From positions 1-64,000 of the forward strand of contig MNXJ01000029.1 in assembly GCA_001872455.1 (NCBI GenBank): 64,000 bases of DNA, written 5' to 3'. Under the pieces are notes generated by a model. It saw only the letters and a program-made list of their open reading frames with translations. It did no database searches and was not told the DNA's origin. This document shows positions 47,001-53,775 of this stretch, one piece after another (the first letter of the stretch is position 1; each line of letters opens with the position of its first letter). A program made the translations under genes and the position numbers. Source of the stretch: Anaerolineae bacterium CG2_30_57_67 (GTDB lineage: Bacteria > Chloroflexota > Anaerolineae > Anaerolineales > Villigracilaceae).

Positions 47001-47564
47001 ATGAACACAGCCTTGCTGGTGATTGATATTCAAAATGATTATTTTCCCGGCGGAAAAATGGAGCTGGAAGGCGCGCTGGCCGCCGGTCAAAAAGCCGGGC
47101 AGTTGCTACAGTGCTTCCGCGAACACGGCGGGCGGCACATTCACATTCAGCACGAGTCGCTGCGCCCCGGCGCGACCTTTTTCATCCCCGGCACAGAAGG
47201 TATTCGCATTCACGACTCCGTGCCGCATTATGTCGGCGAACCGATTGTTTACAAACATTTTCCCAACGCTTTCCGCGAAACCAATTTGCTGGAGATTCTG
47301 CGCGGCTGGCAGACCGAGCGCCTGGTGATTTGCGGCATGATGACGCATATGTGCGTGGATGCCACCGTCCGCGCCGCCGCAGATTTGGGATTCACCGTCT
47401 GGCTGGCGGCGGATGCCTGCGCGACGCGCGCCCTCCGTCACGAGGATGTTTCCGTCACCGCGGGGCAGGTTCAGGCGGCGTTTTTGGCCGCGCTGACCTC
47501 CTACGCGCGCGTAATGACGGCAGAGCAAACGATCACCCTGCTGGCGCAAGAATCTGCCCCTTGA
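47001..47564 (+). CDS. Isochorismatase-family cysteine hydrolase
   Basis: A 187-residue hydrolase. D9 in LLVIDIQNDYFPGG, a mid-protein Lys (PIVYKHFPNAF) and the nucleophilic Cys in VICGMMTHMCVDATVRAA form the family triad. Related enzymes act on nicotinamide, isochorismate, N-carbamoyl amides or peroxyureidoacrylate. A permease for nucleobases follows, so an amide or ureide product of base breakdown is possible. Start ATG 47001. Confidence 0.88.
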   Translation: MNTALLVIDIQNDYFPGGKMELEGALAAGQKAGQLLQCFREHGGRHIHIQHESLRPGATFFIPGTEGIRIHDSVPHYVGEPIVYKHFPNAFRETNLLEILRGWQTERLVICGMMTHMCVDATVRAAADLGFTVWLAADACATRALRHEDVSVTAGQVQAAFLAALTSYARVMTAEQTITLLAQESAP

Positions 47565-47588
47565 CATAATTTTCGATTGGCATAGAAT
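47561..47588 (+). promoter_or_regulatory. Promoter of the permease leader
   Basis: TTGACA (47561-47566), 16 bp, TAGAAT (47583-47588). The -35 box overlaps the stop codon of the preceding gene. Expected transcription start is near 47595, giving a leader of about 135 nt. Confidence 0.75.
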
Positions 47589-47606
47589 CGGGCGCAATGT
47601 CTACAC

Positions 47607-47704
47607 AACACTTGCTCCGGCGTTTGCTCAAACATCACTTCTTCGGGACAAGTGTTTCTACTTTTTGGAACGTGGAGAGTCGCTTTTAGCGGCTCTCTTT
47701 TTTT
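47607..47704 (+). promoter_or_regulatory. Candidate riboswitch/attenuator in permease leader
   Basis: A first stem pairs AACACTTG (47607-47614) with CAAGTGTT (47649-47656), extended by TCC/GGA across a bulged C. Its loop encloses GTTT-GCTC-AAAC (47622-47633). A second structure is an intrinsic terminator (47675-47704). An alternative pairing of CTCC/CGTT (47615-47624) with AACG/GGAG (47669-47677) would break both. The layout fits ligand-controlled termination. It does not match purine, preQ1 or PyrR-loop patterns that I know. Confidence 0.6.
47675..47704 (+). terminator. Intrinsic terminator inside permease leader
   Basis: GAGAGTCGC (47675-47683) and GCGGCTCTC (47689-47697) pair over 9 bp (one G-T) around TTTTA, followed by seven T. 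It lies 24 bp before the permease start codon and after a promoter, so it must be conditional for the gene to be expressed. Confidence 0.85.
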
Positions 47705-47728
47705 GTACCCACCCAAAGGAGAAAGAGA

Positions 47729-49090
47729 ATGTCCAAGAAAATCGCAGTTGCTCCAAAACGAAATGTCTTCGGCTATTTGCCCGATGACACCCCGCCCATC
47801 GGGGCCATGCTCAGCCTGGGCCTGCAGCAAGTGCTGACCATGTTCCCGGCCACGGTGCTGGTGGCCATCCTCACCAAATTTGACATTGGCGTCACCCTGC
47901 TCGCTTCGGGTTTGGGAACGATTATCGCACTGCTGGTTGCCAACCGCAAAATCCCGATGTATTATGGCTCGTCCTTTTCCTATATCGCCGTGGTGCAAAC
48001 GGCCATGACACTCTACGCCAAAGACTGCTTCACTGACCCGGCTACTTTTTACTGCCCTGACGGCGTGCGCATCGTGCAAGTGGGCATCATCGGCACGGCG
48101 GTGGTCGAAATTTTGATCGGCCTGCTGATTATGCGCGTCGGAAAAGCGCGGCTTGATACGGTACTGCCGCCCATCGTCACCGGCTCGATGGCAATGGTGA
48201 TTGGTGTGGCGCTTTCCGGCGCGGCGCTGAATATGGCCTCGGCCAACTGGGGCGTGGCGCTGCTGACACTTTTCGCCACCGTCATGTTCTCGGTGTATTT
48301 GCGCGGCAAAGGGCTGTTGGGCATGTTGCCCATCCTTTTCGGCGCCATCACCGGCTACGTCATTTCGGCGATTTTTGGGCTGGTGGATTACAGCGTGATT
48401 GCCAACGCCCAGTGGCTGCGCATTCCGGCCTTCACCCTGCCAGCCTTCACCGACCCACGCGCGCTGGAACTGGTGGTCAGCATTTCGCTGATTGCGATTG
48501 CGACTGTGCCTGAAAGCACCGCTCATCTGTACCAGATGAGCCTCTACATTGACGAACTGGCCGACGAATTGGGCCGCAAGCCCTTCAACATCAAAGAATT
48601 AATTGGTCTCAATCTGGTGGCCGATGGCGCCGATGACGTTATCGTCGGTCTGTTGGGCGGCGCGGCGGGCACTAACTACGGCGAAAACAACTCGCTGATG
48701 GCAATTACCCGCAACTATTCCGTTCCTGTGCTGATGACGGCGGGCGGCATGGCCGTTTTGCTCGGCTTTATCGGCAAACTGGCGGCGATTGTCAACTCCA
48801 TCCCCGTGGCAGTCACCGGCGGCCTGGCGATTTATCTCTTCGGCGTGATTGGTATGCAGGGCGTGGCGCTCATTCAGAGCGAAAAGGTCAACCTGTTCAG
48901 CCCGAAAAACCTGGCAGTCGGCGCGACCATCATCGTCTGCGGCATCGGCGGCAACCTGGGCCTGCCCAATGGCCTGTTCCCCTTCCAAATTCCGGTACTT
49001 TTCCCCAGCGGCATCCCCGCCATCGTTTTTGCAGCCATTGCCGGTATCCTGATGAATCTGGTCTTTGTCCTCTTCAAAACCGAGGAATAA
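47729..49090 (+). CDS. Uracil-xanthine permease (NCS2 family)
   Basis: A 453-residue transporter with about 14 hydrophobic segments. LPDDTPPIGAMLSLGLQQVLTMFPATVLVAIL is the typical N-terminus of UraA/PyrP-like carriers. The signature helix region IATVPESTAHLYQMSLYIDELADELGRKP and the TNYGENNSLMAITRNYS motif are complete. GPxGxxG-like substrate residues cannot separate uracil from xanthine. AAAGGAG precedes the ATG. Control through the leader attenuator is likely. Confidence 0.9.
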   Translation: MSKKIAVAPKRNVFGYLPDDTPPIGAMLSLGLQQVLTMFPATVLVAILTKFDIGVTLLASGLGTIIALLVANRKIPMYYGSSFSYIAVVQTAMTLYAKDCFTDPATFYCPDGVRIVQVGIIGTAVVEILIGLLIMRVGKARLDTVLPPIVTGSMAMVIGVALSGAALNMASANWGVALLTLFATVMFSVYLRGKGLLGMLPILFGAITGYVISAIFGLVDYSVIANAQWLRIPAFTLPAFTDPRALELVVSISLIAIATVPESTAHLYQMSLYIDELADELGRKPFNIKELIGLNLVADGADDVIVGLLGGAAGTNYGENNSLMAITRNYSVPVLMTAGGMAVLLGFIGKLAAIVNSIPVAVTGGLAIYLFGVIGMQGVALIQSEKVNLFSPKNLAVGATIIVCGIGGNLGLPNGLFPFQIPVLFPSGIPAIVFAAIAGILMNLVFVLFKTEE

Positions 49091-49143: not shown

Positions 49144-49425
49144 TCACTTCTCGGAAAGTAATCCGTTGACATATTTATGCAGTACACCGGAGATAAGGGT
49201 CTGATACGGAATTCCTTCAAGAAGCGCGTGTTTTTGCAAGTCGCGTAAATCTTTTTCAGAGATGCGAATATTGACGCGCTTGTCTTTGCGCAGGGTTGCC
49301 CGCGCGTAGGCACGATACTGCGCCGCTTGTTCTTGAACATTTTTGACGGATTGCCAGGCTTCATTTTCGTAGGCGGCCAGCAGCGCCAATTCATCGTCAT
49401 CGAAGTTGAGTTGAGTTTCGCTCAT
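49144..49425 (-). CDS. CopG/BrnA-like antitoxin
   Basis: A 93-residue acidic-then-basic protein. The C-terminal half KRVNIRISEKDLRDLQKHALLEGIPYQTLISGVLHKYVNG is a ribbon-helix-helix pattern (RINIRI strand, two helices). The N-terminal acidic region should contact the toxin. Its ATG overlaps the toxin stop (49422-49425). The toxin-first order matches BrnT-BrnA modules. Confidence 0.8.
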   Translation of the reverse strand: MSETQLNFDDDELALLAAYENEAWQSVKNVQEQAAQYRAYARATLRKDKRVNIRISEKDLRDLQKHALLEGIPYQTLISGVLHKYVNGLLSEK

Positions 49426-49703
49426 TTTTGACTACCTTTCAAATGCTTTTGAACCGCTTTTCGGCTGGGAATGATGGTTTTCAAAAATACTTCCGAGTCT
49501 GTTTCTACAAATGGGATAAGATATACATATTGATTGATTTCCACAACAAAAATTTTTTGTCCCTGGTACTTTTCTTGATTGGGATTTTCCAGAACATCCA
49601 ATAAAAAACCAAAGTCAATGGCAAGGACGACCTCTTCAAAACAAATTTGCCGCGTGCGTTTTAGCAGTTCATTTTTTTCGATGTTCCAGGCAAAGAGCTT
49701 CAT
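49422..49703 (-). CDS. BrnT-like toxin
   Basis: A 93-residue basic protein. WNIEKNELLKRTRQICFEEVVLAIDFGFLLDV, FVVEINQYVYLIPFVE and FLKTIIPSRKAV follow the pattern of small RelE/BrnT-fold toxins that cut mRNA. The first gene of a coupled pair with a ribbon-helix-helix antitoxin. The start codon is 6 nt from a TATAAT box. Catalytic residues cannot be assigned with confidence. Confidence 0.75.
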   Translation of the reverse strand: MKLFAWNIEKNELLKRTRQICFEEVVLAIDFGFLLDVLENPNQEKYQGQKIFVVEINQYVYLIPFVETDSEVFLKTIIPSRKAVQKHLKGSQK

Positions 49704-49715: not shown

Positions 49716-49753
49716 TTCTTTTGTGTGCCTTTTGGCAACAACCTTGGCGGCCC

Positions 49754-50803
49754 ATGCTCAAACTTCCCGGTCTGATTGACCCGCACGTCCACGTCCGCGA
49801 ACCCGGCCAAACCCACAAAGAAGATTGGGATACCGTCACCCAATCCGCGCTGGCGGGCGGTGTGACGATGATTTTGGCGATGCCCAACACCAAACCGCCA
49901 ATTTTTGATGAAGCCACGCTGAATTTGGCGCTTGCTTCGGCCCACAGCAAAGCGCGCTGCGACTACGCCCAATTCCTCGGCGCTGGGCCAGAAAACGCCG
50001 CTGAAGCCGCCCGCCTGGCCCCGCGCGCCGCCGGGCTGAAAATGTACCTCGACTCCACCTTTGGCGAATTGCGCCTTGACGACATGACCATCTGGCTGGA
50101 GCATTTTCGCCAGTGGCCCGGCCCCGCGCCGATGGTTGTTCACGCCGAAAGCCGCAGCATGGCCGCCGCCCTGGCCTTCTCGCAGCTGTTCAACCAGCCG
50201 ATTCACATCGCGCACATTTCTCTCAAGGAAGAAATTCTGCTCATTCGCGCGGCCAAAGAGCGCGGCGTCCGCGTCACCTGCGAGGTGGCGCCGCATCATT
50301 TGCTGCTCACCGCGCCTGCCCGCGCCGATGGTCGCTTGGAAGTCCGCCCGCGCCTGGCCAGCCAGGCCGATGTGGACGCGCTCTGGCAAAATCTGGCCGT
50401 GATTGACTGCTTTGCCACCGACCATGCGCCGCACACCGCCGCCGAAAAGGACGGCGAAAACCCGCCGCCCGGTTTCCCCGGCCTGGAAACCATGCTGCCG
50501 CTGCTGCTGACGGCAGTTTCGGAATCCCGCCTGACACTGGACGACCTGATTGAAAAATCCGTTACCAACCCTCGCAAAATTTTTGGCCTGCCCGAACAGC
50601 CCGAAACCTGGGTCGAAGTGGACGAAACCGCCCGCTGGGAAATCCACGCCGCCGACCTGCACTCGCGCTGCGGCTGGACGCCCTTCGATGGCTGGAAAGT
50701 CACCGGCCAGGTGCAAAAAGTCGTTCTGCGCGGCAAAACGGTCTGCGAAAACGGGAAAATCCTGGCGCAGCCGGGCTATGGCAGAAATGTGAGGGCCGGA
50801 TGA
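49754..50803 (+). CDS. pyrC: Dihydroorotase
   Basis: A 349-residue amidohydrolase. LPGLIDPHVHVREPGQTHKEDW has the HxH metal pair and substrate Arg. GLKMYLDSTFG is the lysine region. VVHAESRS, IHIAHIS and DCFATDHAPHTAAEK supply further metal and catalytic residues. It closes carbamoyl aspartate to dihydroorotate. The ATG at 49754 is chosen; 11 upstream codons in frame lie near the toxin promoter. It heads the pyr operon. Confidence 0.92.
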   Translation: MLKLPGLIDPHVHVREPGQTHKEDWDTVTQSALAGGVTMILAMPNTKPPIFDEATLNLALASAHSKARCDYAQFLGAGPENAAEAARLAPRAAGLKMYLDSTFGELRLDDMTIWLEHFRQWPGPAPMVVHAESRSMAAALAFSQLFNQPIHIAHISLKEEILLIRAAKERGVRVTCEVAPHHLLLTAPARADGRLEVRPRLASQADVDALWQNLAVIDCFATDHAPHTAAEKDGENPPPGFPGLETMLPLLLTAVSESRLTLDDLIEKSVTNPRKIFGLPEQPETWVEVDETARWEIHAADLHSRCGWTPFDGWKVTGQVQKVVLRGKTVCENGKILAQPGYGRNVRAG

Positions 50804-51791: not shown

Positions 51792-52775
51792 ATGCCCACT
51801 CAATCGCAATCCCCGCACCTGCCTTTTGGCGAAAATAAACAAGCCGACTGGTACGGCAAAGACATTTTATCGGTCAAACAATTCAGCCGCGAGGACCTGG
51901 AATACGTCTTTGGCGTCGCCCACGAAATGCGCGGCATGGTCGAGCGCGTTGGCACGTTTGACCTGCTGAAAGGAAAAATTCTTGCCAATTTGTTTTACGA
52001 ACCATCCACTCGCACCTCGTCCAGTTTTACCGCGGCGATGGAACGTCTGGGCGGCAGCGTCATCCCGATTAACGAGGTCAAATATTCCTCTGTCTCGAAA
52101 GGCGAAAGCCTGGCCGATACCGTCCGCACGCTGGAATGTTACGCTGATGTGATTGTGCTGCGCCATCCCGAAACCGGCGCGGCGGCGATTGCGGCCAAAG
52201 CCGCCAAAAAACCTGTGCTGAACGCGGGCGACGGCGTGGGCGAACATCCCACCCAGGCCCTGCTGGACGCTTTTACCATTTTTGAAGAACTCGGCGTCGG
52301 CCAGATTGACGGCATGACTGTCACCATGCTCGGCGATTTGAAATATGGCCGCACGGTGCATTCGCTGGCGCGCCTGCTTTCGCTCTACAAGGTCAAACTC
52401 AACTACGTTTCGCCCGAAATTTTGCGTATGCCCAAAGAAGTGATGGAAGAAGTCGCCGCCAAGGGCATTCCGCAGGCCGAGTACACGGCGCTCGAAAAAG
52501 TTCTGCCCGAAACTGACGTGTTGTACGTCACTCGCGTTCAAAAAGAACGCTTTGAAAACCTGGAAGATTATGAGAAAGTGCGCGGCGCCTATGTGATTGA
52601 CCCCGAAATCATGAAAGCCGCCAAACAGGAGATGATTGTCATGCACCCCCTGCCGCGCGTCGGCGAAATCAGCCCCGACTTTGACGACGACCCGCGCGCC
52701 GCCTATTTCCGCCAAATGGAATACGGCCTCTACGTGCGCATGGCGCTGTTGGCGATGGTGCTGGGAAAAGCCTGA
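51792..52775 (+). CDS. pyrB: Aspartate carbamoyltransferase, catalytic chain
   Basis: A 327-residue transcarbamylase. The carbamoyl-phosphate motif is [29 protein letters not shown] and the aspartate-side [26 protein letters not shown] are complete. AAGGAG precedes the ATG. No pyrI regulatory chain is seen. The N-terminus is about 20 residues longer than in the E. coli enzyme. Confidence 0.96.
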
Positions 52776-52947: not shown

Positions 52948-53775
52948 ATGGAATCTTTCTTCTCCCTCCTCAAACGCCGCGTGGACGACTGCTCCTCCCT
53001 CCTCTGCGTGGGACTCGACCCGCACGTTGCCGACCTGCCCGAACCAACCGCCGAGGCGGCCCTGCGCTTTTGCCTGACGCTCGTTCAGCAGACGGCGTCC
53101 TATGCGGCGGCCTTCAAACCCAACGCCGCCTTCTTCGAGGTCTTCGGCGCCGAGGGCTGGAACGCGCTTCGACAGGTGATTCAGGCCATCGGCGAGGAAT
53201 CTGCCCGGACGGGTTCGAGGATACCGGTCATCCTCGACGCCAAACGCGGCGACATCGCCTCCACCGCCGCAGCCTACGCCCAATCGGCGTTTGAGATGCT
53301 CGGCGCAGACTGCATCACCCTCAGCCCCTACCTCGGCCAGGATTCGCTCGCCCCGTTTCTGAGAAATCCCCAAAAGGGTGTTTTCCTGCTTTGCAAAACC
53401 TCCAACCCCGGCGCGGGCGATTTACAGGATTTGGAAATCGTCAGCGGCCCGTGGGCAGATGACCGCCAGCCGCTCTACCTGCACGTCGCCCGCCTGGCGC
53501 AAGACTGGAATACGCGCAACAACCTCGGCCTGGTGGTTGGCGCGACTCAACCCGCAGCCCTGGCCCGCGTCCGCGCCGCCGCGCCGAATGTGTGGATTCT
53601 CGCCCCCGGCGTCGGCGCACAGGGCGGCGACCTGTCGGCGGCGCTCCAGGCCGGTTTACGCGCCGATGGCAAGGGCCTGCTGCTCCCCATTTCGCGCGGC
53701 ATCTCCCGCGCCGAAAATCCCGCCCGCGCCGCCGCCGAACTGCGCGACCGAATGCTGGAAAGCAGAAACCCATGA
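52948..53775 (+). CDS. pyrF: Orotidine 5'-phosphate decarboxylase, type 2
   Basis: A 275-residue decarboxylase of the long bacterial (Mycobacterium/Chloroflexus) type. LLCVGLDPHV begins the barrel, FKPNAAFFE carries a substrate Lys, and VILDAKRGDIASTAAAYA is the catalytic DxKxxD-type motif. LAPGVGAQGGDLSAAL binds phosphate. It makes UMP. The start is directly after the repeat array, with no Shine-Dalgarno. Confidence 0.95.
   Translation: MESFFSLLKRRVDDCSSLLCVGLDPHVADLPEPTAEAALRFCLTLVQQTASYAAAFKPNAAFFEVFGAEGWNALRQVIQAIGEESARTGSRIPVILDAKRGDIASTAAAYAQSAFEMLGADCITLSPYLGQDSLAPFLRNPQKGVFLLCKTSNPGAGDLQDLEIVSGPWADDRQPLYLHVARLAQDWNTRNNLGLVVGATQPAALARVRAAAPNVWILAPGVGAQGGDLSAALQAGLRADGKGLLLPISRGISRAENPARAAAELRDRMLESRNP

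Follow-up and report, generated by a model that had tools for sequence, protein, structure and literature searches.

A near-leaderless leader peptide in a probable pyrBI-type attenuator before pyrimidine genes of Anaerolineae

The leader of an NCS2 nucleobase permease gene in the window (the whole stretch of 64,000 nucleotides of contig MNXJ01000029.1 that was analysed) most probably acts as a translation-coupled transcription attenuator of the kind found at Escherichia coli pyrBI (pyrL), with a near-leaderless leader peptide; the probability of this reading is put at roughly 0.8. Its anatomy is well supported: an open reading frame (ORF) that runs to an intrinsic terminator in all 68 leaders pooled from positions before permease, pyrC or pyrB, the position of the stop codon, an enriched U-rich tract and the association with pyrimidine genes, which at the sequence level are the features of a pyrBI-type attenuator. 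The ORF is probably translated, and the transcription start is predicted from the −10 box.

The elements of the leader and the genes behind it are listed in Table 1. The start codon of the ORF lies 8 nt past the −10 box and its stop codon (TAG, 47687–47689) falls inside the terminator loop, with 77 nt between the ATG and the terminator arm (61–98 nt in relatives). The terminator stem pairs 47674–47684 with 47688–47698 (11 pairs including G–U) and is followed by seven T residues (47698–47704). A preliminary description of this DNA had proposed an attenuator whose intrinsic terminator lies ahead of the permease gene; this proposal is borne out and the arrangement is conserved in homologous leaders. 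Both the promoter and the terminator that it named are present, and it overlooked the main feature of the leader, the ORF.

Table 1. Features of the permease leader and of the downstream genes, in window coordinates
Feature	Position	Strand	Basis or remark
σ70-type promoter, TTGACA-N16-TAGAAT	47561–47588	+	−35 box 47561–47566, −10 box 47583–47588; 11 of 12 consensus bases
Predicted transcription start	47595–47597	+	Placed from the −10 box; 5′ UTR of about 0–3 nt
Near-leaderless leader ORF, MSTQHLLRRLLKHHFFGTSVSTFWNVESRF	47597–47689	+	30 codons and TAG; frame open in all homologous leaders examined
First stem of the preliminary description, at most a candidate RNA polymerase pause hairpin	47607–47656	+	Minimum-energy fold
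U-rich tract TTTCTACTTTTT, candidate UTP-sensitive pause	47655–47666	+	Conserved in leader alignment
Intrinsic terminator	47674–47704	+	Sole consensus helix of 41 leaders
Permease Shine–Dalgarno, AAAGGAG	47715–47721	+	Sequence
NCS2 nucleobase permease	47729–49090	+	Pfam Xan_ur_permease
Dihydroorotase (pyrC), next pyrimidine gene on the strand	49733–50803	+	NCBIfam TIGR00857 pyrC_multi, 270.7 bits (cut-off 279)
Aspartate carbamoyltransferase (pyrB)	51792–52775	+	
Orotidine-5′-phosphate decarboxylase (pyrF)	52948–53775	+	

Orthologues of the permease were collected in 100 genomes of the family to which the source genome belongs and, in addition, in the GTDB contig collection; they yielded 41 distinct permease leaders with the promoter–terminator layout. 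A TTGACA-like box and a TAnAAT box are present in all of them, as is the 16-nt spacer, which was a filter criterion. The distance from the −10 box to the ATG is 8 nt in 24 leaders and 10 nt in 15, with 9 and 11 nt occurring once each. Two further candidates have no such ATG; in one the ATG lies 14 nt from the −10 box and the other is an unrelated promoter-like site. Since the ORF sits between a conserved promoter and a conserved terminator, conservation of these flanks alone is uninformative about translation. The frame itself was compared with the other two frames and with shuffled sequences. In all 41 permease leaders, frame 0 stays open from the ATG as far as the terminator; this holds for 22 and 18 leaders in the +1 and +2 frames and is expected for 14.2 from shuffles. 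The first stop lies between −12 and +16 nt from the terminator 5′ arm in 37 of the 41 (other frames, 12 and 3; shuffles, 7.4), and in the remaining four it lies farther on, past the start of the terminator.

The leaders of pyrC behave similarly: all 21 are open in frame 0, compared with 4 and 14 in the +1 and +2 frames and 9.7 expected from shuffles. The stop lies at the terminator in 12 of them, and in the other nine the frame reads on through it. In distant families, six of six leaders taken from weaker model matches are open, with the stop 1–9 nt before the arm. Naive probabilities overstate the significance of such counts because the leaders share descent; a set of 20 representatives of the permease and pyrC leaders was therefore selected by clustering the variable parts greedily, such that the similarity among those kept does not exceed that of random pairs. 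All 20 are open where 7.8 are expected (log10 P = −8.7). The frame continues through the terminator in 13 of the 62 permease and pyrC leaders, as it does in pyrL, although the position of the stop is less uniform as a result.

Between the ATG and the U-rich tract the sequence varies freely while the reading frame stays open. The encoded peptides likewise vary freely; the conserved elements of the leader alignment are promoter, start, a TGTTTTTGTTTTT-like tract and terminator. A search of 298 genomes of the class with the leader peptide returned, besides the window itself, only weak matches (best E-value 0.03) because the peptide sequence is not conserved, and the leader DNA gave no match to phage records. 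The U fraction is 0.57–0.66 at 18–6 nt before the terminator, compared with 0.21–0.34 farther upstream. A run of at least four U residues occurs within 30 nt before the terminator in 35/41 permease leaders and 18/21 pyrC leaders, compared with 21–25% of shuffles.

This arrangement parallels E. coli pyrBI/PyrL (and also pyrE), in which a short leader ORF likewise reaches the terminator of a pyrimidine operon and a U-rich tract precedes that terminator. The same measurement on pyrL gives 88 nt from the ATG to the terminator arm, with a U-rich stretch upstream. The pyrBI and pyrE operons respond to UTP through pausing and attenuation (PMC7818426), the role of coupling across pyrL has been described (PMC5021804) and experiments have shown that a terminator is repressed by a ribosome positioned at a stop codon no more than a few nucleotides away (PMC4824070). 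There are also differences. PyrL has a longer 5′ UTR and a Shine–Dalgarno sequence of its own (GGGAGG), whereas the Anaerolineae ORF is near-leaderless; pyrL reads through the terminator, with its stop 44 nt past the start of the arm, whereas the Anaerolineae stop usually lies at the terminator; and the Anaerolineae leader heads a permease or pyrC gene in another phylum. The start-site slippage (reiterative transcription) of pyrBI (PMC7818426) has no visible counterpart here, where the predicted start lacks a homopolymer.

On the pyrBI-type reading, transcription would start 0–3 nt before the AUG, so that a ribosome could engage the 5′ end of the RNA immediately. When UTP is scarce, RNA polymerase would slow in the U-rich tract that immediately precedes the terminator. 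The ribosome would then catch up and, translating as far as a stop codon within or next to the terminator, would cover the terminator's 5′ arm, allowing the polymerase to read into the permease gene and, in relatives, also into pyrC–pyrB–pyrF. When UTP is plentiful, the polymerase would run ahead, the hairpin would form and transcription would stop. The attenuator is probably sensitive to UTP; this signal and pausing in the U-rich tract are suggested by the tract itself, the pyrimidine genes downstream and the absence of PyrR.

The gene context is consistent with a pyrimidine function. Among NCBIfam models the permease scores best with the uracil permease model PRK10720 (215.7 bits; xanthine model pbuX, 128.7 bits), with no score above the curated cut-off. 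A covariance model built from the leader and used to scan genomes matches 78 of the 100 genomes sampled from the family, the weakest few matches being other leaders, and 28 of 396 genomes in a sample of the class. The genes behind the strong matches are the permease or pyrC itself, and one weaker, partial match precedes pyrB–pyrF. In three genomes the leader occurs in tandem, with separate copies heading the permease and pyrC. At 16 of 24 permease loci bearing the leader pyrC follows the permease, compared with none of 42 loci lacking it (p = 9 × 10−10, uncorrected for phylogeny). In the window, a weak BrnT-like toxin/CopG-like antitoxin pair lies on the minus strand between the permease and pyrC (49144–49703), both members scoring below the Pfam cut-offs. 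Permease and pyrC are adjacent in many relatives, and the pair has probably been inserted into the pyr operon. Permease orthologues without the leader often have, in addition to the gene's own Shine–Dalgarno sequence, a perfect Shine–Dalgarno-like AAGGAGGTG about 80–110 nt upstream of the permease, frequently with no ATG after it (seven loci noted individually, among others).

The U-rich tract could also mark pausing that is independent of UTP. A translation-coupled attenuator in which the tract is a constitutive pause and the signal is ribosome availability, the rate of leaderless initiation or growth state would have an anatomy identical to that of the pyrBI-type reading, and the sensor is putative in either case. 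Such a general sensor would, however, be expected before unrelated genes too, whereas the strong model matches precede pyrimidine genes only and the leader tracks linkage to pyrC; this alternative is therefore considered unlikely.

PyrR-dependent pyr attenuators, known from Bacillus and also from Thermus (with a proposed leader ORF in the latter), share terminator-type control of pyrimidine genes with the present leader. Unlike the organisms that use them, these Anaerolineae have no PyrR match above the NF003549 cut-off in 21 genomes (the source genome, which is 98% complete, and 20 relatives), so that the pyrR gene expected alongside a PyrR-regulated leader was not found there, and an Rfam scan of the leader detected no PyrR-type RNA.

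The preliminary description had considered the leader a possible ligand-binding riboswitch with two mutually exclusive stems and had suggested an Rfam scan and a search for covariation in homologous leaders. A riboswitch or protein-binding RNA of this design, with a nucleobase, UMP or PRPP as ligand, is very improbable. No Rfam family reaches its gathering score with the leader, and relaxed thresholds give only weak matches at chance level, none of them credible. With the terminator included, the leader folds more stably than a set of 200 shuffles (z = −2.78), but once the terminator is left out the upstream region shows no more structure than its shuffled versions (z = −0.76 for this leader and −0.07 on average over 41 homologues). 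The RNAalifold consensus of the 41 leaders consists of the terminator alone, with compensatory changes at three of ten pairs, and no loop sequence is conserved across the alignment. The first stem does occur in the minimum-energy fold of this leader (47607–47614 with 47649–47656 and 47616–47620 with 47643–47647), and in the 14 nearest leaders its helix 1 is paired in 62.7% of alignment cells with some two-sided changes. This weak, partial signal in near relatives is the extent of its conservation; the stem is missing from the 41-leader consensus, and a conserved structured aptamer with covariation was not found. The alternative pairing (47615–47624 with 47669–47677), on which the switch model depends, is feasible by complementarity but is no commoner in relatives than in shuffles (42.2% and 43.5% paired, respectively). 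Of the earlier interpretation, the pyrimidine link drawn from the gene is upheld, through the permease–pyrC–pyrB–pyrF operon and the proposed ORF mechanism, and the ligand-binding RNA is not.

A pause hairpin before the U-rich tract was also considered. It is feasible in single leaders, but the stability of the segment exceeds that of shuffles only marginally and, overall, not significantly (mean z = −0.18, standard error 0.14), and such a hairpin is not claimed.

An amino-acid-specific attenuator of the trp/his type, sensing for example the Phe codons of the U-rich tract, is the least credible alternative: although Phe is the commonest residue in the peptides (13.5%), owing to the tract, they contain hardly any single-residue runs, their stops lie at the terminator and not 26–40 nt upstream, where these organisms have the stops of their hisG leaders, and the genes downstream are those of pyrimidine metabolism. 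The combination of a regulatory codon run with a stop well upstream of the terminator was accordingly not found in the pyr leaders.

Leaders that do have this combination occur in the same genome, where near-leaderless leader ORFs with terminators precede hisG (HHH), aroH (FYFAFYFY) and argG (Arg-rich). Leaderless starts in this genome were judged from the promoter–ATG pattern only, which gives 11 matches compared with none for the reversed pattern. Near-leaderless ORFs with His runs are found before hisG at about two thirds of 30 hisG loci examined. In the hisG, argG and aroH leaders the stop precedes the terminator by about 26–40 nt, which is the geometry expected of a classical amino-acid attenuator; in the pyr leaders the ORF extends to the terminator or past it. 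These amino-acid leaders support the view that near-leaderless ORFs are likely to be translated in these organisms, and leaderless genes have been predicted at about 4–6% in some Chloroflexi (PMC3160421). A further near-leaderless leader ORF with a terminator precedes a phosphoglycerate-dehydrogenase-like gene in this genome.

It seems somewhat favoured that Anaerolineae run a set of attenuators (pyrimidine, His, Arg and aromatic) on leaderless leader peptides, the pyrimidine member of which would sense UTP through a race between ribosome and RNA polymerase from the first nucleotides of the transcript, as an independently evolved leaderless counterpart of pyrBI. The kind of mechanism is known from pyrBI, and the leaderless variant before pyrimidine genes across Anaerolineae may be new; no earlier report of leader-peptide attenuation in Chloroflexota was found in a literature search that covered few subscription papers and is thus no proof of novelty. 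A parallel to its leaderless start exists in mycobacteria, where leaderless polycysteine uORF attenuators have been described (Canestrari et al., 2020, as cited in PMC9031893). According to that citing account, these are also short leaderless ORFs that steer a downstream operon by ribosome position, but their signal is cysteine, read through Cys codons, and they act on translation downstream, whereas the Anaerolineae leader has no codon bias and control through an intrinsic terminator with a pyrimidine signal is proposed for it.

If this is correct, translation-coupled attenuation sensing UTP would not be limited to enterobacterial examples but would have arisen in a distant phylum too, with leaderless initiation replacing the Shine–Dalgarno start. 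The leader would then offer a compact natural system (about 140 bp) for testing transcription–translation coupling on leaderless mRNA, and would caution against taking short leaders that look structured for orphan riboswitches when they may be leader-peptide attenuators. Among the weaker matches of the leader model, one is an Arg-rich near-leaderless leader before argG, like the peptide of the source genome (PRTRRPKPTS), and another is a near-leaderless leader before an isopropylmalate- or homocitrate-synthase-like gene.
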